Origin: Chryseolinea serpens
Lineage (GTDB): Bacteria > Bacteroidota > Bacteroidia > Cytophagales > Cyclobacteriaceae
NCBI RefSeq assembly: GCF_900129725.1
Contig: NZ_FQWQ01000001.1
Location: forward strand, 2,480,001-2,544,000
Length of the DNA: 64,000 nt
Direction of reading: 5' to 3'
Part shown: piece after piece, positions 5,932 to 45,495 of the stretch
How the letters are laid out: each line of letters starts with the position of its first letter
Position numbering within the stretch: the first letter of the stretch is position 1
The notes under the pieces: generated by a model
Databases searched by the model: none
What the model was told of the DNA's origin: nothing
Seen by the model: the letters and a program-made list of their open reading frames with translations, nothing else
Translations under genes and position numbers: made by a program

Positions 5932-5934
5932 GGA

Positions 5935-6819: not shown

Positions 6820-6825
6820 TTACTA

Positions 6826-8331: not shown

Positions 8332-8361
8332 AAGATTATGCTTGTTATAGATTCGCGACCG

Positions 8362-23256: not shown

Positions 23257-23766
23257 AATATATTGGCGCATTTTGCCTGACTCATCTTTGTCCGGAAACG
23301 ATCATTAACGCATCAGAAAGTCTTCCTCTTCTTTGCTGGATCCATCCCATTTATTTTATAACACATACTTCACACCATCGTAAAACTACAAATGCTCAAA
23401 TGTCGTTCTTCGCGACATCAACCATAACCAAGACGGGAGCAGGAAGGAACAGGACGGTTAAATCAAAGTTTGCTTTTAACTATACAGGGAAGACTCTTCA
23501 AAAAGTTCTCTCGACCATTGTTGTCTGCACGAGGGAATAGGTAGTCTCGCGCGGCATCGATGGCAAATTCCTTCAGTGAACATCCAGCCGATGCCAGCCA
23601 TGATTGGTGACGATTGAATTTATTTCTAAAAAACGTTCGCACGTTTTACAAGGAAGTGATGTGGAAAATTCCGAGTTTAGAGGGACTTGCCCTCGCGTTG
23701 CCCAGCCCGGGGGTTATTCAGTAATACGTAGAAAAAAGATTGTGCATTCACGCTAAGGATACGGTT
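23257..23766. other. 510-base gap upstream of the XylR-like gene
   Basis: I see no convincing gene here: open frames are short, with unusual composition and no recognisable domain. An inverted repeat AAAACG, six bases, CGTTTT at 23630-23647 is listed separately. The stretch is AT-richer than the flanks. Confidence 0.5.
23630..23647. promoter_or_regulatory. Inverted repeat upstream of XylR-like regulator
   Basis: AAAACG and CGTTTT arms around TTCGCA form a perfect 6-base inverted repeat, 120 bases upstream of the XylR-like start. It could be an operator for autoregulation. It does not match the N17-spaced boxes found upstream of the PUL genes. Confidence 0.35.
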
Positions 23767-25023: not shown

Positions 25024-26382
25024 TTATGGTTTCTCTTTAACCCAGCCCACCGGAAAGGAAGCATACTTGATCGTCTTTCCCGGCTTGACATCGTCGCGAT
25101 GATAACTGTACACCACCTGTATGGTGCCATCAGCGCCCGCGATCACCGAAGGGTAGTGGCTTGACGTGGCGTCTTTGGTGCGGGTGTCATTTTCGAGACT
25201 GCGTTTCCAGCGCCAGGTTTTGCCTTCATCATCGGAGATGGCAACGGAAAGATTGAAGCGCCCTGCTTCGGTGTCGTTGAACACCATGAGCCATTCGCCA
25301 TCGGGAAGTGTCACCATGTCGAAGCCGGCACCGGGGTTGGGAAGTATATCGTCTTTGGCGATGCTCCAGGTCATGCCTCTGTCGTCTGAAGTCGTACGTT
25401 GCATGCGTTGGGGTGGCGGGCCGTTGTCGCGAAGGTAGGCCGCCAGCGTGCTGTCCTTTTTTATAGCGACCGTGGGTTGAATGCCGGCGCCGCCTAACAC
25501 GGGGTTGCTGAATTGCCAATGCTCTCCATCGTCATCAGAGATCGCAAAAAGAGACCCGTCGAATCCGTCGCTATACAGCGGGAGGATCAGGCGGTTGCCG
25601 ACATAAACAGCTTTGTTCTTGGTTTGCCAGCCGAGCCTGCGCGTGAGCGGATACCCCAGTTCTGCCGGGGTGTCGTGTGCATCGTCGGTGATCCGGCCGT
25701 TGCGCAGCATGTTGCGGCCCTTTGAGAGACTGTCCATTTTATAGCGATAAGCCTTCCAATCGGCCATCATTACATGCTTGAGACTATCGGGAGCCTGCGG
25801 CAGTAACGTGGATTTCATGTAGTCTTCGTATTGACGCAACTGGTCACCTACTTGCACCACGAACTTATCGTTGGGTTGGATGCCGCGTTCGGTTTTATCG
25901 CCGGCCTTTACCAACAAAATATTTTGTGTTTTCCATTCGGGTACGCCGGGTTGAGCATAGTTTTCGCTTCGCGCATACATTAACAACGACGTTTCCCATT
26001 GGTTGGCCAGCACGGTGTACCACATCAGCCAAAGCCGTTGCTGCTTGTCCATGAACAGGATGGGATTGATGTCGGGAAAACCGGGTGCATCCGCCATCAC
26101 GAAAGGTGTTGACCATGCGGTGTCTCCTTTAATCAATCGCGAACCCATGATCCGCACATCGTCGGCCCATCGTTCGCCCGACCCTTGAAACCATGCCGAC
26201 AACAAATCGCCATTGGGCAGCTCCACGAGCGTCGATCCATGGACGTGTTCGTCCTGCAATGGAAAAATGAGGTTGGTTCGCAACGATTGTCCGGGGGGCT
26301 TTTCACTTGGGGGCTGACAACCGTTGCTCACCAACAAAATAAGGAACGGCAGGGTCGCTTTCTTCAGATACGTCATCATCAT
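25024..26382 (-). CDS. Sialidase-superfamily (BNR repeat) lipoprotein
   Basis: A 452-residue lipoprotein (SNGC lipobox) with a six-bladed propeller. Three Asp-box motifs are visible: SDDDGEHW, SDDRGMTW and SDDEGKTW. The start of the domain reads HGSTLVELPNGDLLSAWF with GERWADDVRIMGSR, the BNR_2 pattern. The Arg-Ile-Pro motif of true GH33 sialidases is not present near the start, so it may cut another sugar or only bind. It overlaps the GDPD gene by 4 bases (ATG inside its end) and closes the operon. Confidence 0.85.
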   Translation of the reverse strand: MMMTYLKKATLPFLILLVSNGCQPPSEKPPGQSLRTNLIFPLQDEHVHGSTLVELPNGDLLSAWFQGSGERWADDVRIMGSRLIKGDTAWSTPFVMADAPGFPDINPILFMDKQQRLWLMWYTVLANQWETSLLMYARSENYAQPGVPEWKTQNILLVKAGDKTERGIQPNDKFVVQVGDQLRQYEDYMKSTLLPQAPDSLKHVMMADWKAYRYKMDSLSKGRNMLRNGRITDDAHDTPAELGYPLTRRLGWQTKNKAVYVGNRLILPLYSDGFDGSLFAISDDDGEHWQFSNPVLGGAGIQPTVAIKKDSTLAAYLRDNGPPPQRMQRTTSDDRGMTWSIAKDDILPNPGAGFDMVTLPDGEWLMVFNDTEAGRFNLSVAISDDEGKTWRWKRSLENDTRTKDATSSHYPSVIAGADGTIQVVYSYHRDDVKPGKTIKYASFPVGWVKEKP

Positions 26383-27218: not shown

Positions 27219-27228
27219 TATGCTACCC

Positions 27229-29610: not shown

Positions 29611-31257
29611 TTAGTTCCAGGGTTTACCGGTGCCCTGAATTAGCCAAGGTTTGGACCATGCGCTATTCTTGCCGTCGGCTTGAGAGAAGCCGGTGACTTC
29701 GAGCCTGTCGATGGCGCTCGACGTGTTGTCGGCGTTGAGTCGGATCTCGGCTTGCATGTAGTAGAAACGTAGGGGCATTTTATCACGCTTGGCGGAAATG
29801 CCGGTTGCCAGATCGGGAAAGCCCGTGCGGCGGTAGTCGAACCATGACTCGGTGGCTACGGTCCAACTGGCGATCCATTTTTGTTCGATGATCAATTGTT
29901 GCAATTTCTCGAGCGACGCAGTTTTATCGAACTCCACCGCAGGTTGTGCAATGTAGTCGTCGTAGGCATCGGCCAGTCCCCACGTTTGGAGGGACGCAGC
30001 AATCGCGGCATTGTAGCGGTCGGCGGCCTCGTCTTTGTCGCCATCCATCAGGGCGGCTTCGGCCAAAATGAAGTGCACTTCGGCGGCGGAGATCAGGCGA
30101 GCCTTTAACAAGTCGCCATTTGCTTCCTGGTACATATCGCTCAGGAAAGACACATGCGGATTGTATGACAGTTGACCTGGCGTGGGGTTCATGTTGTAGG
30201 CAGAAGGCAATGCCGAGAAACTTGGAGGTATGCCCACATAGTCGGGATCGGTATCGATGATCACATCTTCTACTACATCAGGCGCCAGGTGACGCACTCC
30301 GTCAATGATCTCGTCTCCTCCAGGGAGCATCGTGTCATCGATAAAAAGCGGGATCTCGACCTTCTTTGCCCAGAGGTCAAGCCGGGGATCGTTCAGGGAT
30401 TGAAGCTTATCCACGAAGGTGGCGCACATTTTTATCCGGCGGAAGTTGCTGCCACTGGCATCATAGACCGAGTTGGAAGGCCACGAATCATCAGCATTGT
30501 GTCCCGCATAATCCATGACTGCATCGTCGCCAGGGTCTGTGATGATGGGAAATTGAGCAGGATCACTAACGATCTGATCAATGCCTGTCTTAGCATCGGA
30601 CGGCAGCTTGGAGGAGATGCGCAGGTAGTAGCGCAACATGAGGGAGTTGGCCATCTTGCGCCAAGCTAAGGCATTGCCGTCGAAGTACACGTCGACGTCA
30701 TTTTTGTAGCCGGGGTTCGCAGCGTCGAAGTCGGCCAGGAGTTGGTTGGCCGTTTTCAGGTCGGCGATGATGCCTTTGTAGATATCTTCCTGATTGTCAA
30801 ACTTAGCTTGTGAATTTTCGATGCCCGGTGTTTCGCCGTTCAGCGCTGCCGAGTAGGGTGCGTCGCCCCACAGGTCGGTGATCAATCCAAACATGAACGA
30901 CTTCATCGTCAATGCCACGCCTTGGTGAAATTTCGATTCCAGCTCCACACCACGGTCATAGACCAGCTTGTTGTTTCTGAGCACGCCATAATAGGTCGAC
31001 CAGCTCTGATCGTACCAGTTGTAGTCGTTGTGACTGTCGGCCCATGCGTCGTACTGCGTATGTTGCATCACACCGGCGATGTCGCCAAAGCCGAGGTTGG
31101 TATAAGCTTTGGCACCTTCCGTGAGCACCGTGGGCAGGATCAGGTCGGGGTTCACGTCGGTGGCCTCGATACCGTTGGGGTTCTTATTTACTTCGGTCAA
31201 ATCTTCGCAGGAAAAGAGTGCGAATACAACCAGGCATGCTATCAATCTTGTTTTCAT
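29611..31257 (-). CDS. SusD-like (SusD_2 type) glycan-binding lipoprotein
   Basis: A 548-residue lipoprotein (lipobox ALFSC, then EDLTEVNKNPNG). The start with NKNPNG and ILPTVLTEGAK, and the segments LMLRYYLRISSK and EVHFILAEAALMDG, are typical of the SusD_2 branch (PF12771), which differs from the RagB type of PUL A. It is the surface receptor of the SusC protein encoded 20 bases upstream. Confidence 0.93.
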   Translation of the reverse strand: MKTRLIACLVVFALFSCEDLTEVNKNPNGIEATDVNPDLILPTVLTEGAKAYTNLGFGDIAGVMQHTQYDAWADSHNDYNWYDQSWSTYYGVLRNNKLVYDRGVELESKFHQGVALTMKSFMFGLITDLWGDAPYSAALNGETPGIENSQAKFDNQEDIYKGIIADLKTANQLLADFDAANPGYKNDVDVYFDGNALAWRKMANSLMLRYYLRISSKLPSDAKTGIDQIVSDPAQFPIITDPGDDAVMDYAGHNADDSWPSNSVYDASGSNFRRIKMCATFVDKLQSLNDPRLDLWAKKVEIPLFIDDTMLPGGDEIIDGVRHLAPDVVEDVIIDTDPDYVGIPPSFSALPSAYNMNPTPGQLSYNPHVSFLSDMYQEANGDLLKARLISAAEVHFILAEAALMDGDKDEAADRYNAAIAASLQTWGLADAYDDYIAQPAVEFDKTASLEKLQQLIIEQKWIASWTVATESWFDYRRTGFPDLATGISAKRDKMPLRFYYMQAEIRLNADNTSSAIDRLEVTGFSQADGKNSAWSKPWLIQGTGKPWN

Positions 31258-31277: not shown

Positions 31278-34200
31278 TTAAAATGTGAGACTCAATTTAA
31301 ATCCTGTGGAAACGGTCCAGGGGTTCACGTTGTAGCGCTCGATGCCTTGCTTGAACGGCGAGTTATTTCCCTGTTGATTTCCCTCCGGCTGAAAGGCCAG
31401 CTCCGGATCCACGCCGATCTTGGCTTTGGTCCACAGCATTAGGTTGCGTGCATACAGCGAGAAGCTGGCATTTTGAAGTCCAAGTGCATTTACAAAAGTC
31501 TTTGGCAATTGATATCCCAGGGATATTTCGCGCAGTTTGATGAATGATGCATCGAAAGTGGCGGGTTTCATAAAGCCCCAAGGATAGTTGTCGGAAAAGG
31601 GAATGTATTTGGTGTCTGGGCCACCGAGGTTCTCCGTGTAGCCCGTGATGTTTCCATTCGCATCGTATTGCGCGATGACGCCAGGATTGAACACGCCATC
31701 GTTAAGAGTCACATTATCTCCAAGGTCACCCAGGGGATGTCCACCATATTCCGGGCCGGGTCCGCCCACGATGTGAAAACCATTGGTGATGTATTTGTCA
31801 GCATTGGCCACCAGATAGTCGCGCAGCGCATCGCCTGTCATGCTGCCCGGGTTGATCAGTTGGTCGAGCCAGCGCTGTGTTTTAAGATCCGATTCGGCGT
31901 AGCGATAGGTTTGCGAAATGAACTGACCGCCTTGGCGCCAATCGAACGAAAGGTTTAGCGTGAACGCCTTGTACGACAACGTCGATTGCATACCCATCAA
32001 AAAGTCTGGGTTGTAGTTTCCAATCTTGTTCTTGGTGTCGCCGGCACTCACACTCTGCCACGATCCTTCGTCATCCAGCAACGGGTAGCCATAGTAAGGC
32101 GAATTTTTGTCTTCTACAGTTACCAGTTTTGAATCGTAGAGGTCGCCGATCGTTTCACCTACATACGTCCAAGACCCACCTTTTCCGTCCGTCCAGAAAG
32201 TGTAAAATTTATCACCACCCGACAGCTCCATCAGCTTGGTGCGATTACGGCTATAGTTCAGGTTGACATCCCATCGCCAATTGCCATTCTCCACAACAGT
32301 AGCACCAACGCTTAACTCAATCCCTTTGCTGACCAAAAGGCCTGAATTGACCTTGCGTGTTTCAAATCCACTGGACGGCGCCAACGCAGTCGGGAAGATC
32401 TGGTTGCGGCTGTCCATTTTGTAATAAGTTCCCTCAAAGCGTAGTCGGTTGTTGAAAAGGCCGGCTTCCAGGCCAAATTCAGACGTGGTGAGCATCTCAG
32501 GCTTCAAGTTTGAAGTCAGTAGGTTCGGTGATTTACCACTCCGGGGGATGCCATTCCACGCCGTATAGGGATCCAGTATGTTATACAGTTGATAAGGATT
32601 AGTATCGTTACCCACCTTTGAAATTGCAGCCCGAACCTTCAACATGCTGAGTTCGTCGGAAATGTGAACCATCTCGTTCACCAACGCACTTAAAGACGCA
32701 GAGGGATAAAAATACGAGCGGCTTTCCGGCGGGAGGGTGCTCGACCAGTCGTTACGCGCCGTCACATCCAAATAAATCATATCCTTGTATCCGAGCGTGG
32801 AGGTACCATAGACACTATAGATGGATTTCTTATTGCGATTGCTACTATACTCAAGATTGTCTGTAGCGATATTCTGAATAGTGTACAAACCCGGTATGAC
32901 CAAGCCCGTACCTGCTTTGCTCGCATTGGACACGCCGCCGTAGTCTTGATGCATGGCATTACCCCCTGCCGACACGCTGAGATGAAACTGGCCGATGTCT
33001 TTTTTATAAGTCGCCAGGAAATCGGCGTTGCGTTCCAGGCGATCCAGGTCGATGATACCATACGCGCCACGCGGTTCGCCGGTGTAGCTGTTGGCGATCT
33101 TCGTTTCACGTTGCTCTTTATAGGTGTCGAGTGAATAACGACCAAACACCGTGATGTCCTTCGTGATCTCCCAGTCGAGTTTCACGTTTCCGTAAACACG
33201 GTCGCGCACAAAACTGTTGTTCACTTCGTTCGCTAAAAAGTAAGGGTTGTTGTATTCTCCTGCACCATCGTCTTGAGTGAGTTGTTGCAAACCTTCTTTT
33301 CCTTTCACCCAATAATTCTTCATGTCGCGAATGTCGATGTGAGGTGAAACATAATAGGCCCATTGGATCGGATTGGTCCCCCGGTTCCCGGCGGGCCGGT
33401 TGTTGGAATTGCTCCGGGTGAAGTCGATGTTGGTGCTGAAGCGAACTTTGTTTGAGATCTTTACCGCCGTATTGAAGTCCAGCGTATTTCTAAACAAATC
33501 CGAGTTGGGCACGATGCCGCGGTTGCTCATGTTGGTGTAGGACAAGCGATACGTGAGCAGGTCGCTGCTGTTGGACACCGACACCGTGTTCGTAGAAGTG
33601 ATGCCCGTGCGCACAAAATTCTTCACGTTGTTTGGATGCGAGGTCAGCAAGGTTGGGATCTTGTTTCCATCGGCGTCCACAGGGCTGTTCCATTGAATGG
33701 CCTTGTAGCCCTGGTCGAGTCGCGGACCGACACCGGCCACGGTTCCTTCATCGATCGTGAGTGTTCCCGACGGATTGGCATCCGGCGTATAGGGCCGCAC
33801 ACCCACGGCATATTTATCGTGGAAGTCCAGGAACTTGTAAGGGACATCGAAGGTATTGTTGGTGGAAACGTTCACCGTTAGTTTCTTGGCCTTCGCGCCC
33901 GTCTTCGTCGTGATCATGACCACACCGTTTCCTGCGCGCGAACCATACAACGCTGCGGCGGCACCACCTTTCAACACGGAGACCGATTCGATGTTGTCGG
34001 GGTTCAAGTCGGCAATGGCGTTGCCATAATCGACGCGGTTATCCGAACCGATAGCGCTCACGTTTTGGATTGAGTTGTTCAGTGGCACGCCGTCCACGAC
34101 AAACAACGGTTGGTTGTTGGTGAGCGATTTGGCACCACGGATCACCATGTTCACCGACGAGCCAGGACCGCCCGTAGAAGAAATGGTCACGCCGGGAACA

Positions 34201-34676
34201 CGGCCCGCCAAACTGTTGAGCACGTTTTCCTGCGGAATGCGGTTCAGATCGTTCCCATTCACGCGACCCACCGAGTAGCCCAGGGAGCGTTCATCGCGTT
34301 TGATACCCAATGCCGTCACCACCACTTCATCGAGCGACTCGGTGTTGGGTTGCAACACGACGTCGATGGTGGTTCGATCGCCGATCGATACTTCCTGGGT
34401 GGTATAGCCGATGTAGGAAAACACGATCACCGCGTTGTTGTCGGAGGCGGTGATGGAATATTTTCCATCCGCATCGGTGATCGTACCCACCTGCGTTCCT
34501 TTCAGGTAAATGTTCACGCCGGGGAGCGAGCTTCCATCGTCGGCAGAAGTGACTTTGCCAGTCACCGTCACGTCAACGGGTGCGCTGGCGAAGGCACTGC
34601 CGGCCAGCAGCATCATGCAACAGGAGAATAGGTAGCTCCTGCATTTTTTCTGTAGACTGTAAAATTTCTCATTCAT
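31278..34676 (-). CDS. SusC/RagA TonB-linked outer-membrane transporter (PUL B)
   Basis: A 1132-residue barrel protein counted from the ATG at 34676 (an upstream extension to 34757 lacks coding character and precedes a normal signal sequence MNEKFYSLQKKCRSYLFS). Order: signal peptide ending FASAP, carboxypeptidase-like domain (VTGKVTSADDGSSLPGVNIYLKG), TonB box (ESLDEVVVTALGIKR), plug with LAGRVPGVTI, then the barrel with a C-terminal aromatic (LSLTF). It is the pore for the oligosaccharide caught by the SusD_2 protein. The promoter region carries box B of the shared regulatory motif. Confidence 0.96.
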   Translation of the reverse strand: MNEKFYSLQKKCRSYLFSCCMMLLAGSAFASAPVDVTVTGKVTSADDGSSLPGVNIYLKGTQVGTITDADGKYSITASDNNAVIVFSYIGYTTQEVSIGDRTTIDVVLQPNTESLDEVVVTALGIKRDERSLGYSVGRVNGNDLNRIPQENVLNSLAGRVPGVTISSTGGPGSSVNMVIRGAKSLTNNQPLFVVDGVPLNNSIQNVSAIGSDNRVDYGNAIADLNPDNIESVSVLKGGAAAALYGSRAGNGVVMITTKTGAKAKKLTVNVSTNNTFDVPYKFLDFHDKYAVGVRPYTPDANPSGTLTIDEGTVAGVGPRLDQGYKAIQWNSPVDADGNKIPTLLTSHPNNVKNFVRTGITSTNTVSVSNSSDLLTYRLSYTNMSNRGIVPNSDLFRNTLDFNTAVKISNKVRFSTNIDFTRSNSNNRPAGNRGTNPIQWAYYVSPHIDIRDMKNYWVKGKEGLQQLTQDDGAGEYNNPYFLANEVNNSFVRDRVYGNVKLDWEITKDITVFGRYSLDTYKEQRETKIANSYTGEPRGAYGIIDLDRLERNADFLATYKKDIGQFHLSVSAGGNAMHQDYGGVSNASKAGTGLVIPGLYTIQNIATDNLEYSSNRNKKSIYSVYGTSTLGYKDMIYLDVTARNDWSSTLPPESRSYFYPSASLSALVNEMVHISDELSMLKVRAAISKVGNDTNPYQLYNILDPYTAWNGIPRSGKSPNLLTSNLKPEMLTTSEFGLEAGLFNNRLRFEGTYYKMDSRNQIFPTALAPSSGFETRKVNSGLLVSKGIELSVGATVVENGNWRWDVNLNYSRNRTKLMELSGGDKFYTFWTDGKGGSWTYVGETIGDLYDSKLVTVEDKNSPYYGYPLLDDEGSWQSVSAGDTKNKIGNYNPDFLMGMQSTLSYKAFTLNLSFDWRQGGQFISQTYRYAESDLKTQRWLDQLINPGSMTGDALRDYLVANADKYITNGFHIVGGPGPEYGGHPLGDLGDNVTLNDGVFNPGVIAQYDANGNITGYTENLGGPDTKYIPFSDNYPWGFMKPATFDASFIKLREISLGYQLPKTFVNALGLQNASFSLYARNLMLWTKAKIGVDPELAFQPEGNQQGNNSPFKQGIERYNVNPWTVSTGFKLSLTF

Positions 34677-34864
34677 GGGGAGATGGGGGTTAATATTCAG
34701 AGTTAGTTTTTGCGTTTCGAGATCGTATTGTTCTTGTTGGCATTGAAAAAAGGGCAATTTTTTTCAACTGATCTTCCGTTTTGGCAACCCTCCCTTTCTG
34801 CTCCAATTCCGGCAACTGCAGGATGCTTATCTAAAGCTGGTCATTAATTGTGTGCAGTGTGCTC

Positions 34865-35102: not shown

Positions 35103-37724
35103 TCATTCAAGCGACACGTTCACCCGGTGACTGGCTTTACCAGCGTCATCAAAGCTTTTCAAGGCCACCGGCCCCTTTACAACAACAGGTTTTGTGTAGT
35201 GGGGTGAGGCTAGGGTGGGTTCGGTTCCGTCTGTCGTATAATGTATGGTCAGTCCGGGATATTCTACGTTTGCCCTCAACTCACCATTGTCAATGATGGC
35301 ACCCGGCGGTGGAACGCGATAGTTGTAGCCGCTATTCAAATAATGAAGACGCGGCAGTTCCCGTTTGCCCAGGCGGTTGGCAAAAACATTCCATCCGTCG
35401 CGGATCAGCTTTTCGCGTTGCGTTTTGTCGGCTACGGTTTCCCACGGGCGTTCGGCTGCCCAGGCGCTTTCGGCAAAGCCCACCAGTTTGGGAAGCATGT
35501 AGTATTCCAGCATGTCGCGGCCCTTCACGGTTTCGCACCACACCTGGGCTTCCAGGCCGAGGATATTTTTGCGGGCTTGAGGTTTCAGATGTTCTACGAT
35601 GATCTTGTTCTTTTCATATACGTTCACCGCTTCCAGGTCGAGTTTTTGACCCAATGAATTTTTCTTCGTCGTCTTGAACATATCGTAAGGGGCAAAGGTC
35701 CAGCTGTGCCGGGTATCGACAAATCCGGCCCAATACAGACCGGGCTCCTGGGGATCTTTGCTATAGGCCAAATCAAAATAGAAGTTGGACACGTTACACA
35801 ACACCACCTTGTAGCCCGCGTTGGCCAATCGATAGCCCAGGTCGGGATAGTCGAAAATGTTGTTCCAGATAAAGGGCACTACATTGGCGTCGACAAACTC
35901 GGCGTTGGGTTCGTATTTCCCATCGCCCTTTTTCGCCAGCGCCACTTCCTCCCATCCATCGAGTTGAAGGTTCCGCGACTTTAGCCGCTTCACCAACTCG
36001 CTCAGGAAATAGGTTTGCAGATTTTTGGGATCCTTTATTTCGGGGTGCAGGCGCATCAATTCCAGGGCCATGGGCGATTTTGTCCACGCGCCTTCGGGCA
36101 CTTCGTCACCGCCTGTGTGAAACTCATCCAAGGTCAACCCTGCTTCCTTGTAGAGCGCAGCAATTTCGTCGGTCACTTTCTCATAAAAATGAAAGACCGA
36201 TTCGCGCGCCACGCACACCACATTGTCCCGGTAGCCTTGCGCCGATTCGTAAACCGATCGGTCGTCGGGATCGATGAGACGGAATTCATTCGCTTCAACT
36301 TCCTTGCCCTCCCCCATCAATCGCTCATAGCGCGCTTCCATGGCTTTGATGGCCGCCCGCGCATGACCCGGAAAGTTCACCTCCGGAATGACCTTGATGT
36401 GACGCGCCGTGGCGTATTTCAATATCCCGATAAAATCTTCCCGTGAATAGTAGCCATGCCCATAGCGACCTTCCTCTTTTGAAAAAGGGCCCGAACCATA
36501 GGCCGGGTGCAGCGCCGGCGCTTCTTTGCCTGATGTATGTTGTCGTTGTGCACCCACTTCGGTCAACTCGGGCAGGTCTTTAATTTCCAGGCGCCATCCT
36601 TCGTCCTCTGTGGTATAGAAAAGAAAGCGGTTGATCTTGTAGAACGATAAAAGATCAAGGGTCCGCAAGATGGTTTCCTTGGTCTGGAAATTCCGGCTCA
36701 CGTCCAGGTGCAACCCCCGGAATGCAAAGCGTGGGGCATCCTTCACACGCAGGTTCGGCAACCGTAACGTACCAGATTTGTTTGCATAGGATTTTAACGG
36801 TATGCATGCGCGCAAACTCTGAATGCCATAGAATACGCCGGCGGCATCGCTTCCTGAAATATCAATGCCGTTGCCGGCGATGTTTAACGTGTAAGCTTCA
36901 TGCGTGACGCCGTTCACGGTGAGCGGCGCTTGCCGGAGTCGGATGGCTTTCCCCTGCGGAGGGTCTGGCAGTATTTTTAGATCCAGTCCTGTGGCCTCTT
37001 TCAAGGCCGCAGCCAGGTAAGCCGACTCTCCAGCCAAACCCTTCTCGAAATAAATACTCCATGTATGATCCATCTCGACGGAATCTTTATCCATCACCAA
37101 CGAAACCGGCGAAGGCACAATGGGGGTAACGGCGCTTGGAGAAATATCCGTTAAGTCAAGGCTGTTCTGGTATGCCAGCGCTGCCGTAGGGATTGGCTCC
37201 TCATCTTTTTCATTTCGGTTAACCTGGTCCGGACTGACAAAAGGCTTCCAGGTGTATTCGACGACGTTCACAATTTTCTTTTCCTTGCCCTCGTCATCAT
37301 AAAAAACAAAATATAAACCCAGGGGGCGGTCGGTTTCCTTGATCACTGCTTCCACGCCGCGGTAAGAAATATCTACCGACTTTCCCGGCAGCAGCGTGAA
37401 GCCTTTGTCTGGCCGTAGCGCATACCAGTCGCCATTGATGTGATGAAGGCGCGCGAACTGTTCGGTCTTGTTCTCGAGGATTCGCCGGGGTGCCAGGTTG
37501 AAAAAGAGCGCCCAATTTTTGTCATCCAATTCCAGATCACTGTGATTGGTCAGTTGGAAGCGGGCATCGAACACGTCCTTCTCATCGGTGAAATTGGTGA
37601 CCAACTCCCATCGCACGGCGATCTTGCCGGCGGTTTCCAGCGGGTTCTTTTTTTGCTGACAGGCCATGCCCGTCAGCAGGAGAAAGACAAGGCAAATGAG
37701 GTGGTGTCTCTTTGTAGCGTTCAT
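35103..37724 (-). CDS. Beta-N-acetylhexosaminidase, GH20
   Basis: An 873-residue lipoprotein (lipobox TGMAC). N-terminal carbohydrate-binding domain of chitobiase type (about 30-180), a short GH20b domain (about 200-320), then the GH20 TIM barrel (about 330-740) with the catalytic pair Asp540-Glu541 in FHTGGDEVPEG, and a small C-terminal domain with YTTDGTEPTL. It removes terminal GlcNAc or GalNAc by substrate-assisted catalysis at the cell surface. The gene starts about 20 bases after the stop of the NagX-type gene, so the two form one unit. Confidence 0.93.
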   Translation of the reverse strand: MNATKRHHLICLVFLLLTGMACQQKKNPLETAGKIAVRWELVTNFTDEKDVFDARFQLTNHSDLELDDKNWALFFNLAPRRILENKTEQFARLHHINGDWYALRPDKGFTLLPGKSVDISYRGVEAVIKETDRPLGLYFVFYDDEGKEKKIVNVVEYTWKPFVSPDQVNRNEKDEEPIPTAALAYQNSLDLTDISPSAVTPIVPSPVSLVMDKDSVEMDHTWSIYFEKGLAGESAYLAAALKEATGLDLKILPDPPQGKAIRLRQAPLTVNGVTHEAYTLNIAGNGIDISGSDAAGVFYGIQSLRACIPLKSYANKSGTLRLPNLRVKDAPRFAFRGLHLDVSRNFQTKETILRTLDLLSFYKINRFLFYTTEDEGWRLEIKDLPELTEVGAQRQHTSGKEAPALHPAYGSGPFSKEEGRYGHGYYSREDFIGILKYATARHIKVIPEVNFPGHARAAIKAMEARYERLMGEGKEVEANEFRLIDPDDRSVYESAQGYRDNVVCVARESVFHFYEKVTDEIAALYKEAGLTLDEFHTGGDEVPEGAWTKSPMALELMRLHPEIKDPKNLQTYFLSELVKRLKSRNLQLDGWEEVALAKKGDGKYEPNAEFVDANVVPFIWNNIFDYPDLGYRLANAGYKVVLCNVSNFYFDLAYSKDPQEPGLYWAGFVDTRHSWTFAPYDMFKTTKKNSLGQKLDLEAVNVYEKNKIIVEHLKPQARKNILGLEAQVWCETVKGRDMLEYYMLPKLVGFAESAWAAERPWETVADKTQREKLIRDGWNVFANRLGKRELPRLHYLNSGYNYRVPPPGAIIDNGELRANVEYPGLTIHYTTDGTEPTLASPHYTKPVVVKGPVALKSFDDAGKASHRVNVSLE

Positions 37725-37745: not shown

Positions 37746-38858
37746 TTATAATTTTATGAAGATCTTCTTACGATACAAAACATACGCCGGAATAAAATTG
37801 ATGCCCACGAAGAGCATCGCATAGAGCACACTCGCTATTTTCGGCGCCACTCCGAAGTGCGTCAGGGCCGCAAACCATTGCTCGTTGAGTGGTGCGCCTC
37901 CAAAGGGCACAAGGTAGAACAGGTAGGAGATCACCTCAGAAATAAAATAAACCGCAATCGCATTGGCCCCAAAAATAATTCCCGGCAGCGTTCCCTTGAC
38001 GTAGTGGCAGATGTCCACAACGTAGTAGGCCGTACCCAACACCAGGGCAGCCAGTCCGCCGGTGATCAACACAAAGGAACTGGTCCACAGATTTTTATTT
38101 ACCGGGAAAGTCAAGTGCCAGAGGTATCCCAACACGACCGCTAAAAAGCCAGCGATCAATAATAGGATTGTTTTTTCGTGTGGCGTTCGCGAACTCAGCA
38201 GCAACCTGCCGGCCAGCATCCCTCCTATCCCGGTGACAATCGAGGGAAATGTGCTGAGTATCCCCTCGGGGTCCCACGTGCCCTGCCACATGCGGCCCGG
38301 CAACAATTTACTATCCACCCAAGCCGCCAGGTTGTTGCCAGGGTCCAGCACAACGCGTCCCTGTCCCGGTGTTGGAATGAGTACCATGGCCAGCCAATAT
38401 GCCACGAGCGTCACCACCCCAACCCAAACCAACGTTCGAAACGAGGCGTTCAGAAAAAGAAAAGAACACACCAGGAACACGATGGCGATGCGCTGCAACA
38501 CACCCGTGACGCGCAATTCTGAAAAATGAAAATACGGCAACAGGGTCAGGAAAATTCCGACAGCAAAAATCTTGAGCGCCCGCAACGCGACCTTGTTGTA
38601 CAACACCCCCTTCGCCACCCCTTGCTCCAATGCCCGCGTGAACGCCAGCACTATCGATACGCCGACGATAAACAGAAAAAATGGAAAGATGAGATCGGTT
38701 GGTGTCAGCCCGTTCCACGCGGCGTGTTCCAACGGTTCAAAAATAAATTCGCCGTTACCGGGATAGTTCACCAGGATCATTGCGGCGATGGTAAACCCGC
38801 GCATGGCGTCCAGCGAGGTGAGACGCGTGGCCGGGGTGGAGGGGAGCGATTCGTTCAT
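37746..38858 (-). CDS. nagX: NagX-type / heparan-alpha-glucosaminide N-acetyltransferase-like membrane protein
   Basis: A 370-residue protein with about ten membrane segments. It starts with TRLTSLDAMRGFTIAAMILVN and continues with LTPTDLIFPFFLFIVGVSI, the pattern of the HGSNAT/NagX family. Members acetylate glucosamine across the membrane, or are thought to move GlcNAc. Being just upstream of a GH20 gene, it probably handles the aminosugar released by that enzyme. No signal peptide is needed. A 100-base gap separates it from the propeller gene upstream. Confidence 0.87.
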   Translation of the reverse strand: MNESLPSTPATRLTSLDAMRGFTIAAMILVNYPGNGEFIFEPLEHAAWNGLTPTDLIFPFFLFIVGVSIVLAFTRALEQGVAKGVLYNKVALRALKIFAVGIFLTLLPYFHFSELRVTGVLQRIAIVFLVCSFLFLNASFRTLVWVGVVTLVAYWLAMVLIPTPGQGRVVLDPGNNLAAWVDSKLLPGRMWQGTWDPEGILSTFPSIVTGIGGMLAGRLLLSSRTPHEKTILLLIAGFLAVVLGYLWHLTFPVNKNLWTSSFVLITGGLAALVLGTAYYVVDICHYVKGTLPGIIFGANAIAVYFISEVISYLFYLVPFGGAPLNEQWFAALTHFGVAPKIASVLYAMLFVGINFIPAYVLYRKKIFIKL

Positions 38859-38962: not shown

Positions 38963-41185
38963 TCACTTTTCAACGGGTGCGCTGATCACACCCAGATAAC
39001 GTCCCATCCAGTACGGCAACAACCAAATGTCGCCCGCGCTGTATTCCGATGCGCCGTCATCGCCGCCATCCAGGTCAAAGCGGTTGGCGTTGTGGCGGTT
39101 GATGGGTAGTTCGTCAGGAGGCAGCACATCGCGAATGGTTTGCTTGCGGAAGTTGGGTTCGATGCGCTCGATGTCGCGGCGGTGTTCGTTCGACACTTTC
39201 CAGTGGATCAGGTCCAGCGGATATTCTTGCAGATACCAAACGGCTTCGTTCAAATCGAAATCGGGTGTGCCCGTGAGTGCGGTAAAAATATTCCACGCCC
39301 CTTCTTTCTCGGGCCGCTCTGCCTGCCAGTGGTCGATGATCGATTCTTTGTAACGCGTCTTCAGTGTGTCGTTGAAGGCATAGCGATACAAACCCCAATA
39401 GCCCACAAAATACATCTCATCATCCGAATGATTCCACGCCTCCGACAGCATCTTGCTCCAGTCGTCGGCATCCGGCGCGGCCATGCCGATCTTGCTCATG
39501 GGATACATCAGGTTCTTGAAGTAGCCATGTTTGTCCAGGAGTTCGAAGGCCTTTGTTTTGTAGGCTTCCTTCTTTGTGAAATGATAGGCAGTTTGCAACA
39601 TGGCGATGATGTTGGAAGAATTGATCTTCCGGTCGCCGACACCAAACGGTCTTTGGTTCACATAGTCAGGATTCCATTTGCCCCACACCGTGGGCTTGCC
39701 ATCCCAATCCACGAGGTAGAGGTTGTTGTCGAGCACATGTTGCATCAGCGAGTCGATGAGGGTGACGGCACGGTGTTTCAGGTCCTGATCGTCCAGCAAC
39801 TCGGCCATCACGCCAAAGGCAAAGATGTGACCGATGGCTTCGTCGCTGCTCGTGGTCGATTTCCAATCCCACTCCGGATCGCCCGCACGGCGCCAGGGTT
39901 TGTCGTCATACTTATACCCCCTCCGCTCGAATGAGCGCGATGGGAATCCTTTCAAGTCATTGATAGAATACAACCGCTCCATGGCCTCGGTGGCCTCGCG
40001 AATATTTTGCAGCGCATCGTCCGACTTGGTCACCGCATAGCGAAACACTTCTGCGCCGAGGTACATGGACGTCCACAAGCCGTCGTTGTCAGAGTCTTCC
40101 AACGAGCCGGTGGCCAGGCTGCCGTCTTTCATATAACCCAGTGTGGCATTGAAGCCGTGCCGGATGTGACGTGCGCGAACCTGGCGCTCGAAATAGTCGG
40201 CCTTCTCATGCAAAGTCATTTTTTTTAATACGATTTGTCCCAGCCCCTGATCGGTCAGGATCAGGATGGATCCCTCCGGACCTTCGGCGATATCGACCAC
40301 GAGGTCGCTGGGGAGCCAGCGTTTGGAGGCGTAGTGATCAAACTTTCCGTCGTGACGTATTTTGAAAGCGCCGCGTGTGGTCCCAAACCACAGGTCGTCG
40401 CCGATCGTTCTCACGCAGGTGATCTCCGTCCAGGGAAGTTTGGTCTGGCGTTCGCCTTTTTGGGTGGCCGAGGTGAGGTCGATCACTACATAGCCTTCGC
40501 GCGTTCCGATCACGGCCTCTTTTCCTTTTCCGGTCAGGGCAAAGCTGGTCAGATCCTTTCCTAAGAAAACGGTCTTCAGGGTTTGGTCTTTTGTGGAGAA
40601 TGATTGCAGGGAATTGGCGGTCAGCAACCAAAATGTAGCGGTGGTCTCATCGAAGGCCATGTCCAATATGTTTTCGGCGTGCTTTTCTTTCCACAAAGAC
40701 TTTCCGTTTTTCACGTATTCCAGTTGCTGTCCATCCGAAAGCAGAAAGCCTTCGCGGTTCCCCTTGAAGCGCGTCACCGTGGGGAGCGTGTGGGGCATGT
40801 ACAATTCACCAGCCCAGGCGTTGCTGAGCACGGCCTTGTCGTCGACATAGACAAATTGGTGTTCACAGACCTCCAACGCCTTTATCTTTTTATCCGCCAG
40901 CGGTCGATAGGTACGGTCCACCACCAATGTCCCGGGATAGAGAAAACTTCCTGCGAAAGGCTTCAGCAAACCTGCCGACGAAAAAACCTGGATCACGCCA
41001 TTGCGATCGCTCACCACATTCTTCAACGTGATCCCTTCCCCGGCAAGACCATATTTGATACTGTAGTCCTGGACAAATGCAACGTCCGTGTGGACCGGCT
41101 GGGTCGGTAATTTGGCAGGGCCATCTTGTTTACAGGCTTGAAAGAAGATCGTGAGCAGGACGAAGGTCCACGGCGCATATTTCAT
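38963..41185 (-). CDS. Propeller plus alpha-barrel lipoprotein, first paralogue
   Basis: A 740-residue lipoprotein (FFQACKQ lipobox) started at ATG 41185; the longer frame to 41296 is not supported because a -7-like element sits at 41213-41220. About residues 30-330 form a propeller with two-component-regulator-like repeats (DLWFGTTRGAFKI, YVVIDLTS). The C-terminal half is helical with a distinctive set of motifs shared with the neighbouring gene: DSDNDGLWTSMYL, TSSDEAIGHIF and DGKPTVWGKW, ending LLPYWMGRYLG. Acidic residues in conserved motifs suggest an enzyme, perhaps a lyase or hydrolase, but I cannot assign one. Confidence 0.82.
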   Translation of the reverse strand: MKYAPWTFVLLTIFFQACKQDGPAKLPTQPVHTDVAFVQDYSIKYGLAGEGITLKNVVSDRNGVIQVFSSAGLLKPFAGSFLYPGTLVVDRTYRPLADKKIKALEVCEHQFVYVDDKAVLSNAWAGELYMPHTLPTVTRFKGNREGFLLSDGQQLEYVKNGKSLWKEKHAENILDMAFDETTATFWLLTANSLQSFSTKDQTLKTVFLGKDLTSFALTGKGKEAVIGTREGYVVIDLTSATQKGERQTKLPWTEITCVRTIGDDLWFGTTRGAFKIRHDGKFDHYASKRWLPSDLVVDIAEGPEGSILILTDQGLGQIVLKKMTLHEKADYFERQVRARHIRHGFNATLGYMKDGSLATGSLEDSDNDGLWTSMYLGAEVFRYAVTKSDDALQNIREATEAMERLYSINDLKGFPSRSFERRGYKYDDKPWRRAGDPEWDWKSTTSSDEAIGHIFAFGVMAELLDDQDLKHRAVTLIDSLMQHVLDNNLYLVDWDGKPTVWGKWNPDYVNQRPFGVGDRKINSSNIIAMLQTAYHFTKKEAYKTKAFELLDKHGYFKNLMYPMSKIGMAAPDADDWSKMLSEAWNHSDDEMYFVGYWGLYRYAFNDTLKTRYKESIIDHWQAERPEKEGAWNIFTALTGTPDFDLNEAVWYLQEYPLDLIHWKVSNEHRRDIERIEPNFRKQTIRDVLPPDELPINRHNANRFDLDGGDDGASEYSAGDIWLLPYWMGRYLGVISAPVEK

Positions 41186-41212
41186 GGAAAGGGCGTTTCG
41201 GTTTAGGATGGA

Positions 41213-41277
41213 CAAGAATATCAAAAAATCACCAGGCGCTTGTGGGATTTTACGTTTATGAAGGATGCATTTGCGCA
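41213..41277 (-). promoter_or_regulatory. Shared box C with promoter (first propeller gene)
   Basis: On the minus strand: TGCGC, 17 bases, ACGTAAAATCCCAC (41242-41277), then 21 bases, then TATTCTTG (41213-41220), close to the TAnnTTTG -7 element. The predicted leader is about 20 bases, which agrees with the start at 41185. Part of the four-copy motif of this region. Confidence 0.55.
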
Positions 41278-41302
41278 ACGGCCAGTTTATCTTCACCGAT
41301 CG

Positions 41303-43552
41303 TCACTCCGCCGGTTCCCCGATCATCCCCAGGTATCGTCCCATCCAATACGGCAACAACCAAAACACCGGCTCGCGCTCCATAAAGTGGTCGCCAGGGT
41401 TGATGCCCCACGGATTTTTATCCCAACGCACCGTCGACCGGATGCTGGCCGGTGGCAACGCATCCACTTGCACGTCGTCTAACACGGGCGCATGCACGAC
41501 GTGCACATCTTCCCGTTTCGTGTGGTCGATGCTCCAGTCTACCAGGTCGAGCGGCGTGTCGGTGAGAAACTCTACCGAGGGCTGCAGTTCTTTTTTCTGT
41601 TGCCGCGCATACACATAGATGAAATTGATCAACGGGTTGTGATCGCCCTTGCGCCGCTCCAGCCATTGGTCGATATGGTTTTCGTAAAACTGCTTCAACT
41701 TGGGGTCGGTTTCGGTTTTCAACAAGATGGGATATTGGTAGGCCGCCAGGATCACGTCGAAATAGATAAACCACGCCGGATTTTGATGCGGGACGTTCGC
41801 CATGTTGTCGAGGTAGTGTTCCGTTTGGATGAGACGGAGATATTCCTGCTGAAATTTTTCCTCGCCCGTGATGTAGTGAGCAAACTTGAGGAACGACAGC
41901 ACCTCCATCGAATTCAGGCTGCGGTCGGGGGTCCATTCGGGATCGCGGTTCAGCCGGTCGGGTGACCAAACGCCCCAACGCGTGGGTTGTCCGTCGATGT
42001 CGGTCAGCGTGAACTGATGGGCCATCAGGTGGCTGACGATCTTGGAGACGTGCGCGCGGATTTCCTTTTTCTCTGCTTCATCGGCTACCAGATCGTAGTA
42101 AATAAAATAGCCGAACATGTGTCCACAGATCTCGTCGCTGCTGGTGTCGCCTTTCCACAACCATTTGCCATCGCGCGATTTGTGCCAGCGCACCTCCACG
42201 GGTTTGTAGCGGGGTTCTTTCACTTCTTCGTCGGCCCGTTCGCGGTCGGTGTAGGAGCGATTGCCGTCGTGGTAGAACGTCCATTCCGTGGGCACGATGG
42301 TGCGGGCAAAGAAGCCATCGGTTTCCGTCACCTCTTGCAGGAGTTTCAAAAACCGGAAAGCTTTACGGGCTTTTTCTTTTGCGTCTTCGCTTTTGGTGGT
42401 GGCATAGCGAAAGCTTTCCATCGCCAGGTAGTTGCTGGTGAATTCGCCGTCGTTGTCGTCGTCTTCCGCCTTCCAGTGAGTAGTGTCCCCTTCTTGCAGC
42501 AGCCTGCATTGTCCGGCGATCCACGGTTCGCGCATGTGACGGCGCATCAGCACATCATAAAAATAGTGTTCCTTGGAGGCCAGCGTCATACGTTTTCGTT
42601 TGATGGCGCTCACACCCTGGGGTGTGCCCAGCCAGGCATTTCCGTCGGCATCAAAAGCAATGGCGTTCACTTTGTCGTCGACCAACCATCGCCGGCTGAA
42701 ACGCAGGGAAGGTGAGTGATCGCCTGCATAGCGCACGACACCCACATTGGTGCCGATCCACATCACGCCGACCGGCGAGCGGCGTACAGCGTTCACGTGG
42801 ATCGACGGCATGCCTGCATCCGGTCCAAGCGTTCTCATTTTCTTCCCGTTCTGCAATACCGTGACCCCTCCAAGTCCCCCAGCCCAAACCTGCCCGCCAT
42901 CCTCCAAGGCAACCCCGCGAATGTAGGCACTCAACAGATCGGTCGTATCCATGAGGTGTTGCGTGCTGTCGCGGCCGGCATGATATAAGCCTACATCCGT
43001 TGCGAGCCACAAACCTTCGTCACCATCAGAGATCACGTCGCGGATGGAACGGGCAACGACGTAGTTCTTTTTCTCGCATCCTTCCTCTTTGAAGAGCCAT
43101 ACGCCTCTGGGACCTGCGGCATACATTCCTTCTGTTGTGGCACACAACACGCTTAGCGGCGACGTGGCCCCTTCCATTTTGGTCACCACGTTATGCTTCA
43201 TCCTAAACACGGCCCTCCAAGTGCTCATCCAGACCGCGGAGTCCTTGTCTATCACTACTGAAAATGCAGGGCCTTGTTCAACGGTCGGCAGCGCGGCTTC
43301 CCAGGTCATGGATCTGTTCTTTTTCACAAAGACGCCCGCCGGTGTGGCGATCCACACGTTGGCTTTGCCATCCACCGCGAGACTTCGCACTTCGCCAATG
43401 CTCGCAGGAGTGGTATAACCTTCGTGATATTCCTGCCAAAACACGGTGTCACGGAATACGGTCGTCTCAGCGGGTTTAGGAGGCGCCGGGGCGTTCTGCT
43501 TGCAGGCAAACCAGAGCGCGCACGACAACAGTAGAAAAAGTCGTTGCATCAT
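41303..43552 (-). CDS. Propeller plus alpha-barrel lipoprotein, second paralogue
   Basis: A 749-residue lipoprotein (LWFACKQ lipobox) with start ATG 43552 or 43549. Propeller repeats fill about residues 40-330 (NVWIATPAGVFV, MWIGTNVGVVRY), as in two-component-type propellers. The helical half keeps the same motifs as its neighbour: DDDNDGEFTSNYL, TSSDEICGHMF, DGQPTRWGVW and LLPYWMGRYLG. The two proteins are clearly paralogues but are diverged overall, so they likely have different glycan preferences. A predicted promoter lies about 25 bases upstream. Confidence 0.82.
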   Translation of the reverse strand: MMQRLFLLLSCALWFACKQNAPAPPKPAETTVFRDTVFWQEYHEGYTTPASIGEVRSLAVDGKANVWIATPAGVFVKKNRSMTWEAALPTVEQGPAFSVVIDKDSAVWMSTWRAVFRMKHNVVTKMEGATSPLSVLCATTEGMYAAGPRGVWLFKEEGCEKKNYVVARSIRDVISDGDEGLWLATDVGLYHAGRDSTQHLMDTTDLLSAYIRGVALEDGGQVWAGGLGGVTVLQNGKKMRTLGPDAGMPSIHVNAVRRSPVGVMWIGTNVGVVRYAGDHSPSLRFSRRWLVDDKVNAIAFDADGNAWLGTPQGVSAIKRKRMTLASKEHYFYDVLMRRHMREPWIAGQCRLLQEGDTTHWKAEDDDNDGEFTSNYLAMESFRYATTKSEDAKEKARKAFRFLKLLQEVTETDGFFARTIVPTEWTFYHDGNRSYTDRERADEEVKEPRYKPVEVRWHKSRDGKWLWKGDTSSDEICGHMFGYFIYYDLVADEAEKKEIRAHVSKIVSHLMAHQFTLTDIDGQPTRWGVWSPDRLNRDPEWTPDRSLNSMEVLSFLKFAHYITGEEKFQQEYLRLIQTEHYLDNMANVPHQNPAWFIYFDVILAAYQYPILLKTETDPKLKQFYENHIDQWLERRKGDHNPLINFIYVYARQQKKELQPSVEFLTDTPLDLVDWSIDHTKREDVHVVHAPVLDDVQVDALPPASIRSTVRWDKNPWGINPGDHFMEREPVFWLLPYWMGRYLGMIGEPAE

Positions 43553-43731: not shown

Positions 43732-45495
43732 CTATTTCCGAATGGTGAACGTATCCTTTACCGCGCCCTCGCTATCCACCGCCGTATAGGTGAGCGATTT
43801 GTCATGGATTTCCATGCGCTGATAAAAGTATCCGCTGTCGTATTGCTTCACGGCGTAAGGCTCCGGTGTCATGGCCTCGTGATGGCTGGGGATGCTGATC
43901 GAGATGGCATATACCGTGCCCTTGCCAAAGTTGTCCACCACTTTTCCGGCGAACATCGGGTTGGAGCGCATGTAGTAGTGAATGTGACCACCCAAAACCA
44001 TGTCGACATGATATTTGTCGAAAAGAGGAACCCAAGCCTGTTGAATATCGAGATAAGGTTCTTCAAAATTGTAGGGCGGGAAATGAAACATCACAAACTT
44101 CCAGGTGGCCTTGGTGTTGGCCAGTTTCTCTTCGATCCAGGGGGTGTGGGCATCGACTTCGGAAGTGGCGTCGATCATGATAAAAAGCGCGTTGCCATAT
44201 TCGAAAGCATAGCTCGATTCCGTGTCAACGCCGCGGGGCCCATTTTTGGGTAAACTAAACAAGTCGTAGTAGAGTTGCGCGCCCAAACCGTCCTGCCGGT
44301 CGTGGTTGCCGGGTACGGGCATCAGGGGTTTGCATGAAAACACGTCGTGCGAATAGCCAAACAAATGATCCCAGTCGTCGCGGTTGAGGCCCGTGCTCAC
44401 GATGTCGCCAGCGATGGAGTAGAAGGCTGCGTCTTTATTGTTCTTGTCGGCCAACGACACCAGCTTACCCGAATCGGGAAAACAATGCGTGTCGCCAAAC
44501 CATACGTAGGTAAAATCCTTCGTCTTCGCCGGCTCGGTCTGGAACGATCGCACGGTCGACCACCCCAAGCCTGCACCCACGCGGTAGCCGTAGTGCGTGC
44601 CGGCGCGCAAATTCGTGAGCTGCGCGGTGAACCGGTTGACGTACCGGTCATTGAACAGCATGCGGTCCTGGATTTGGTTGCGCGACGCTTTTGTTGTCAA
44701 CGTGTCGGTGGTGCCTTCGATCCAATACTTCACTTCACCTTGTGTCACAGCCGGTGCGGTCCGCCATTGCACATCGATGCTGGTTTGGGGTGAGGCGCTC
44801 CAGGTCAGCAGGACCTGGTCGGGTTCGGCGTGAGAAGGAAACTGGGTCTTCCGAAAGGCATCCACGACGTGTGCCTCGCGCGCCCGGCCCCGGACGGTGG
44901 TGAACAGCGCCTGGCCTTGCAAGGCTTCGGGAACTTTTGTGATCACCAGGCCCGACCAATCGTGATACGTGAACGCCCCCACACGCAATGTGTCAACGGG
45001 GTAGCCGGGATAGACATCCGAAAGGACAAGCTTCGCTGTTTTGTCCTGTGGTGCAACGCTCACAAAATAGACCGGGCGGTGTTTGTCAAAACCATTGATC
45101 CCCAGTTCGACCTGGCCCGCCGGAAAATCTTTTTGCCATACTTCGTAGGTATACTCCTCGTTCGTCACCTCCATCGTTGTTTTTGCGAACCCTGCCGGTT
45201 CCAGCCAAAAGGGAACAACGGGCTGACCTTTGTCGCGCATGATGGAGACTGTTACCGGAACGTTCACTGTAAAATACTGATAGCGCGTCGCCAGCACATG
45301 CCGTTCCGCATCGGTCACAAACTGACGCATAAAGGCGTCGTCGATCTTGGCAAATTGCGCTTCCGGCACGTTGGCATAGAGCCGGCTGATCACCGTGTCC
45401 ATCACGGCGGCCACAGAACCTTGGGACTGGGGTGGCGTTTTGTGACAGGATGTTAGTGAAGAAATAAAAATGGAAGCGATGAAGATGTAGCGCAT
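43732..45495 (-). CDS. Metallophosphoesterase lipoprotein, purple-acid-phosphatase-like
   Basis: A 587-residue lipoprotein (lipobox SLTSC). After about 200 residues of unassigned beta-rich sequence comes a fibronectin-like domain (about 215-320), then a calcineurin-type phosphoesterase (about 325-560) with all metal motifs: GDTH, AGDIVSTG, GNHD, HFPP and GGHIHYY. This order resembles purple acid phosphatases. It likely removes phosphate monoesters outside the cell. It is the first gene of the run and carries box A upstream. Confidence 0.9.
   Translation of the reverse strand: MRYIFIASIFISSLTSCHKTPPQSQGSVAAVMDTVISRLYANVPEAQFAKIDDAFMRQFVTDAERHVLATRYQYFTVNVPVTVSIMRDKGQPVVPFWLEPAGFAKTTMEVTNEEYTYEVWQKDFPAGQVELGINGFDKHRPVYFVSVAPQDKTAKLVLSDVYPGYPVDTLRVGAFTYHDWSGLVITKVPEALQGQALFTTVRGRAREAHVVDAFRKTQFPSHAEPDQVLLTWSASPQTSIDVQWRTAPAVTQGEVKYWIEGTTDTLTTKASRNQIQDRMLFNDRYVNRFTAQLTNLRAGTHYGYRVGAGLGWSTVRSFQTEPAKTKDFTYVWFGDTHCFPDSGKLVSLADKNNKDAAFYSIAGDIVSTGLNRDDWDHLFGYSHDVFSCKPLMPVPGNHDRQDGLGAQLYYDLFSLPKNGPRGVDTESSYAFEYGNALFIMIDATSEVDAHTPWIEEKLANTKATWKFVMFHFPPYNFEEPYLDIQQAWVPLFDKYHVDMVLGGHIHYYMRSNPMFAGKVVDNFGKGTVYAISISIPSHHEAMTPEPYAVKQYDSGYFYQRMEIHDKSLTYTAVDSEGAVKDTFTIRK

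Follow-up and report, generated by a model that had tools for sequence, protein, structure and literature searches.

Predicted propeller and helical-ring proteins A and B of Chryseolinea serpens as candidate glycan-degrading enzymes

Why should a propeller of the two-component sensor type be joined to a helical domain without a name, in two neighbouring proteins encoded beside glycan-related genes? The two genes, A (38963..41185, minus strand, ATG at 41185, 740 aa) and B (41303..43552, minus strand, ATG at 43552, 749 aa), lie side by side in the window, the 64,000-nucleotide stretch of Chryseolinea serpens DNA analysed here. Our main reading, to which we assign a probability of about 0.5, is that A and B represent a family without a name whose members are exported and degrade glycans, most likely as glycoside hydrolases. 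It draws on the predicted architecture, residue conservation, the loss of motifs in a sister clade termed A', the genomic context and a fusion to a GH20 domain, from which we infer hydrolysis, the residue roles, the closure of the ring, the substrate and the localisation.

Architecture of A and B

A and B are paralogues of the same architecture, with 27% identity (E 8e-67) in an alignment covering approximately the whole length of both. A preliminary description of this DNA had claimed two neighbouring paralogues with four common motifs, and both open reading frames are found at that place, with all four motifs in each. The DxDNDG-region motif reads DSDNDGLWTSMYL in A and DDDNDGEFTSNYL in B, the second motif TSSDEAIGHIF in A and TSSDEICGHMF in B, and the third DGKPTVWGKW in A and DGQPTRWGVW in B; the C-terminal LLPYWMGRYLG is identical in the two proteins. 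Given the near-full-length alignment and the conservation of the motif residues, most of which are either invariant or kept in 90% or more of 70 aligned sequences, these common motifs are not due to chance.

B starts with a signal sequence followed by a lipobox-like Cys17, and a lipobox-like Cys18 is present in A, both judged by eye. The earlier designation as lipoproteins thus suits the two window proteins. It does not extend to the family, where a simple lipobox pattern, applied to closed frames of 650-850 aa with predicted ORF starts, is found in only 28 of the 73 frames of B type and 5 of the 40 of A type; lipoprotein character was accordingly rejected as a defining trait.

In B, the propeller spans residues 37-324 (42581..43444, minus strand) according to the AlphaFold2 model, Pfam and PDB matches, and in A residues 37-323 (40217..41077, minus strand) according to the AlphaFold2 model and structure matches. 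Our own strand count in the model of B gives seven blades, the last of them being completed by the first strand. Pfam assigns B to Reg_prop (PF07494, E 1.8e-10), with one further propeller family at 0.08, and Reg_prop is matched by 19 of the 40 rows of a 40-sequence alignment at E 1. Searching PDB sequences with the 70-row profile retrieves sensor-kinase propellers (best 4a2l, E 2.3e-49), the matches falling in the propeller regions, so that the two-component type previously ascribed to the propeller is supported for B. Superposition of the B model on 4a2l_C with VIA-align yields a Z-score of 30.1 and an rmsd of 2.9 over 281 aligned residues, many unrelated propellers scoring within 1 Z of this value. 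One propeller loop of B carries R288-W289-L290 (42683..42691, minus strand), 99-100% conserved in the 70 rows.

The propeller repeats resemble those of the Reg_prop hybrid sensors BT4663, BT4673 and BT3049 in both sequence and structure. As described in PMC3243724, hybrid two-component sensors combine a pair of 7-bladed propellers with a YYY domain, followed by kinase parts; a member of the Reg_prop hybrid sensors should thus carry YYY, kinase and receiver domains on one polypeptide. A and B instead combine a single propeller with a helical ring, and no kinase, receiver, Y_Y_Y or DNA-binding Pfam domain is detected in either at E 0.1. A sensor-kinase reading of the two proteins was rejected for lack of kinase-type Pfam domains.

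The predicted helical ring occupies residues 324-749 of B (41306..42583, minus strand) and, in the AlphaFold2 model of A, residues 325-740 (38966..40213, minus strand). The models display pLDDT values of 94.2 for B and 92.1 for A, obtained with 70 and 40 aligned sequences, respectively, which we chose from the homologues. The ring of B comprises 15 helical segments, twelve of which we assigned as ring helices alternating between outer and inner positions, counting segments 531-536 and 538-562 as one helix and leaving 436-445 and 580-584 in loops. With this assignment, the outer-to-inner connections of the model are 29, 64, 19, 20, 2 and 63 residues long, against 2, 3, 2, 3 and 5 residues for the inner-to-outer ones. 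This alternation of long and short connections, with one short exception, is consistent with an (alpha/alpha)6 ring in which the long loops would form the mouth. Structure prediction of both A and B therefore agrees with the earlier proposal of a propeller joined to a helical half, the predicted helix connectivity of the latter being ring-like.

The proteins had also been described as having no assigned function, and the ring indeed has no name in Pfam or NCBIfam. No Pfam family is hit by the ring of window B at E 10 or by full-length A at E 0.1; NCBIfam gives nothing in A and, in B, only sub-cut-off matches within residues 48-100. Among the matches listed, propellers dominate in Foldseek searches of the PDB with full-length B and A, in a Foldseek search of a viral library with full-length B, and in VIA-align searches with full-length B and A. 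A 16-row ring profile returns two chance-level matches among PDB sequences, the better at E 0.72.

Profile-profile comparison with hhalign, against families built from genome sequences, places GH127 first, at 60.2% (P 8.5e-5, 205 columns). It is followed by the AGE family of N-acylglucosamine 2-epimerases (PF07221, 23 rows) at 19.8%, glucuronyl C5-epimerase (PF06662) at 13.1% and GH88 (10 rows) at 6.6%. Twelve other families reach 0.1-0.7%, among them GH78 (0.2%) and GH92 (0.6%), both toroid families. As controls, reversed profiles of seven families give 0.1-0.8% (0.4% for AGE), and 20 column shuffles each of GH127, AGE and C5-epimerase give at most 0.9%, those of AGE having been made on a 23-row set with one row (L167) in the wrong reading frame. 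The values depend on the rows used: the first 60 ring rows, of B type, give 7.6% for GH127 and 18.2% for AGE, and the last ten, of A type, 17.9% and 65.3%. The profile link to GH127 and AGE is thus weak and row-dependent, yet above controls, which suggests a place near the AGE/GH127 toroids rather than membership of one family. The comparison with alpha/alpha-barrel enzymes proposed in the preliminary description yields this weak similarity at the profile level; the full-length fold matches listed are propeller-dominated.

The GH127 beta-L-arabinofuranosidase-like toroids (PF07944) use a Cys nucleophile, whereas no Cys is found among the invariant or nearly invariant columns of the ring family. 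PF07944 itself is matched by 3 of 16 ring rows (best E 0.0017) and by neither A nor B at E 0.1. Family-level matches to AGE and C5-epimerase are likewise absent from A and B, which carry their own set of motifs.

Conserved residues of the ring and the A' clade

In the predicted structure, the DxDNDG, WxWKGDTSSDE and DGxPTxWGxW motifs map to long loops or to the first residues of inner helices, as does the stretch preceding the last helix. Along B (all minus strand), DDDNDG (residues 364-369, with D366, N367, D368 and G369; 42446..42463) lies just before inner helix 1, SSDEICGH (471-478; 42119..42142) where inner helix 2 begins, DGQPTRWGVW (520-529; 41966..41995) before inner helix 3 and LLPYWMGRYLG (732-742; 41327..41359) in inner helix 6. 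Their counterparts in A, also on the minus strand, are DSDNDG (364-369; 40079..40096), SSDEAIGH (446-453; 39827..39850), DGKPTVWGKW (495-504; 39674..39703) and LLPYWMGRYLG (722-732; 38990..39022). From the topology, motifs placed in outer-to-inner connections should gather at one mouth of the ring.

Considering the positions of B occupied by D, E or H, and defining an outer-to-inner segment as the loop together with the initial eight positions of the inner helix, 13 of 14 conserved residues fall in such segments; among the 76 non-conserved residues the number is 43 (Fisher p 0.008). When all conserved columns are taken, 53 of 77 lie in the mouth (p 0.017), an enrichment that we rejected as strong evidence because 42 of 425 circular shifts are equal or better. 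Just two His residues, H339 and H478, are conserved at 90% or more. Conserved Arg, Asn and Tyr residues are present in the ring as well.

The conserved positions were compared across a table of 168 members, made of 31 aligned rows and hmmsearch matches below 1e-60, in which three members lack the DNDG region. Eight of these members form the single clade A' (support 0.996). At the position of E474, within the second motif of B, all 8 A' proteins have Gln and all 160 other members Glu. N367 is replaced by Ser, G369 by Asn and H478 by Gln in 8/8 A', two of which lack D366 as well, while N367 and G369 are invariant in the 157 non-A' members that contain the region. H478 is not universal elsewhere, being Tyr in 8 of the 160 members with E474. 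D473, D599 and D682 are kept in 168/168 members, and D368 is likewise retained in the 165 members whose sequence includes that position.

The E474 and DNDG loops, about 100 residues apart in sequence, thus change together in A', which fits a single shared active site; this joint loss marks E474 as the best catalytic candidate, and its role as the catalytic acid is our best reading of the alignments. As A' is one clade, the losses perhaps go back to a single event. All eight A' proteins share a locus or a fused frame with an A-type copy bearing E474 (L035, L042, L047, L060, L069, L073, L216 and L219). The homologues without E474 are probably pseudoenzymes, serving as non-catalytic partners.

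Distribution and genomic context

Relatives of the family are encoded by at least 549 stretches in a scan of a collection with one genome per species, 80 of which were kept as loci for analysis. These 80 loci come mostly from Bacteroidota, and also from KSB1, Planctomycetes, Omnitrophota, Verrucomicrobia and Hydrogenedentota. Of 126 homologous ORFs, 120 cover both propeller and ring, and these are spread over 77 of the 80 loci; the pairing of the two domains, earlier regarded as unusual, is therefore no local oddity. The helical half of B finds matches at 1e-5 in 30 of 148 genomes of the same taxonomic family; across the phylum, the ring profile does so at E 1e-20 in 6 of 296. Such a patchy prevalence points to an accessory trait. 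A genome that encodes the family often has several matches, up to 12 in one case, some being pieces of one gene. A-type and B-type genes occur together in 39 of the 80 loci, and in 16 of those 39 they lie on one strand less than 200 bases apart. In a Chitinophagaceae MAG, a single frame of 1408 aa (L073:7067-11290, plus strand) joins a GH20 domain (PF00728, E 2.2e-93) to a B protein with Reg_prop, a fusion that may be an assembly error; it is followed on the same strand by a frame joining A and A'.

In the window, the minus-strand cluster runs in the order PAP-like, B, A, NagX, GH20, SusC, SusD, hairpin, PhoPQ-related, two GDPD, BNR_2. Upstream of B, Pfam identifies a purple-acid-phosphatase (PAP)-like metallophosphoesterase (43732..45495, minus strand). 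After A come a NagX/HGSNAT-like transmembrane N-acetyltransferase (37746..38858, minus strand; sub-cut-off NCBIfam NagX match at E 2.9e-60, Pfam HGSNAT_cat above cut-off), which also matches HGSNAT structures, and a chitobiase-like GH20 beta-N-acetylhexosaminidase (35103..37724, minus strand; Pfam GH20, E 6.5e-84), which among solved structures best matches 9joq and chitobiase. They are followed by a SusC-type TonB-dependent transporter with plug and CarbopepD domains (31278..34757, minus strand), a SusD-like protein (29611..31257, minus strand; PF12771, E 3e-72), a terminator-like hairpin (29593-29561) and, further on, a BNR_2 (sialidase-like) propeller protein assigned by Pfam (25024..26382, minus strand). 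The PhoPQ-related protein and the two GDPD enzymes (26379-29436) might be a hint that the substrate contains a phosphodiester. Elsewhere in the window, a GH2 enzyme is encoded together with another SusC/SusD pair (3958-11427).

A SusC/SusD pair together with carbohydrate-active enzymes, the hallmark of a polysaccharide utilisation locus, is found here, and we read the window cluster as a putative locus of this kind for an amino-sugar glycan. At its end, and convergent to it, lies a regulator with a sugar-binding-type Peripla_BP_3 domain and an AraC HTH (23740..24939, plus strand), which we take to be XylR-type. This regulator is 70% identical to one in the relative G066 (L217:11486-12664), whose neighbours there include NagX, a ROK kinase and a GH2 protein bearing the Ig domain of exo-beta-D-glucosaminidases; the identity of the two regulators suggests a shared inducer. 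Genes for NagX and GH20 neighbour A and B not only in the window but also in several loci of the Chitinophagaceae type. In the available part of PMC9007349, NagX is proposed to serve glucosamine use on the basis of fitness data from five bacteria, its genes are said to lie often in chitin-utilisation operons, and the term 'regulator propeller' does not appear. Several literature term searches returned no paper, a weak absence as few subscription journals were covered.

Across the family, twelve glycan-gene seeds find matches in 61 of 80 loci compared to 9 of 40 control stretches (p 4e-8), a contrast that is overstated because the seeds were picked from the window and the family loci themselves. 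GH20, NagX or YdjC occur in 30/80 family loci and 1/40 control stretches. The controls are 40 stretches of 20 kb that we placed at spaced, non-random positions in eight family-bearing genomes; the family loci come from other genomes and have a mean length of 18.8 kb. Per 80 loci, the neighbours include YdjC (16), GH78 (10), DHDPS (9), GH92 (8), GDPD (8) and PAP (7). GH31 is found in 2/80 family loci and 2/40 controls. DHDPS/SSF or sulfatases appear in other family loci, sulfatase also in 2/40 controls. A glycan context of the family is thus supported. Since this context varies between loci, one substrate for the whole family is unlikely, and judging from gene content the family probably serves several glycans.

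Proposed mechanism and alternative readings

According to the proposed mechanism, the Reg_prop propeller would pack with the (alpha/alpha)6-type ring, and the substrate would enter through the mouth built by the outer-to-inner loops into a cleft lined by Trp and Arg residues. E474 of B, equivalent to E449 of A, would be the acid/base residue; in the DNDG loop, D366, D368 or both would supply the partner acid or form a metal-bound element. In the window, SusC/D would import oligosaccharides of an amino-sugar glycan for trimming by A and B, NagX would act across the inner membrane to N-acetylate glucosamine left exposed, and the chitobiase-like GH20 would remove GlcNAc. Elsewhere, A' would be the non-catalytic partner of an active paralogue. 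We advance only tentatively the fuller proposal that a sensor-type propeller has become the fixed partner of a toroid active site and that the two together define a new family of glycoside hydrolases, acting in the window on glucosamine-containing glycans, with an A' pseudoenzyme in the locus of, or fused to, A.

The ring could instead be a polysaccharide lyase or sugar epimerase, eliminating or epimerising a uronic-acid or amino-sugar unit in the same cleft. Such an activity would be in line with the weak profile similarity to AGE (18-65%) and C5-epimerase (11.8-13.1%) toroids and with the conserved Arg, Asn and Tyr residues, but the clearest residue lost in A' is a Glu and the GH20, SusC/D and NagX neighbours fit hydrolysis. 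The Pfam matches to such enzymes, C5-epim_C at E 0.016 and Alginate_lyase at 0.12, are single marginal rows in a scan of 40 members, and we consider this alternative unlikely. Somewhat less plausible still is that A and B are non-catalytic surface lipoproteins that bind or chaperone glycans and feed SusC/D. The propeller type is shared with the heparin/heparan-sulphate-sensing BT4663 and its relatives, both window proteins are lipoprotein-like, and A' proteins retain D368, D473, D599 and D682 without E474; in our judgement, however, the strictness of E474 in 160/160 members, together with these four Asp residues, goes beyond what binding alone would lead one to expect.

An N-deacetylase, sulfatase-like or phosphodiester-cleaving activity, with D366, D368 and D473 binding a metal, appears improbable. 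The DxDNDG motif resembles a calcium-binding loop, and YdjC, PAP and GDPD neighbours (16, 7 and 8 of 80 loci) would suit such chemistry, yet these separate neighbours could already provide the activities, and a ring with H339 and H478 as its only highly conserved His residues speaks against it. Very improbable, finally, is a role as the sensor domain of a regulatory system, to which the Reg_prop matches might point: neither protein contains a kinase, Y_Y_Y or DNA-binding Pfam domain, and the cluster has its own regulator at its end.

If A and B are enzymes, as in our main reading, at least 549 stretches would encode a carbohydrate-active domain without a Pfam or NCBIfam name, and an extra step would be added to the breakdown of amino-sugar and other glycans by Bacteroidota, Planctomycetes and others. 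The A' clade would then allow an active copy to be compared directly with one that is probably dead. Frames carrying both types are seen in two MAGs: A fused to A' in the Chitinophagaceae MAG (L073:11307-15758, plus strand, 1484 aa), which may be an assembly error, and A' with A in one frame of 1514 aa (L069:11342-15883, plus strand), in which no Pfam family is named. In two loci, a DUF3748 propeller protein adjoins A (L216:13262-14632 and L051:14700-16073); DUF3748 occurs in 16/80 loci but in only three genera or bins. Weak GH67N/GH20b-like N-terminal matches are given by the products of L216:14649-17240 and L219:10921-13338, which are possibly further unnamed glycosidases.
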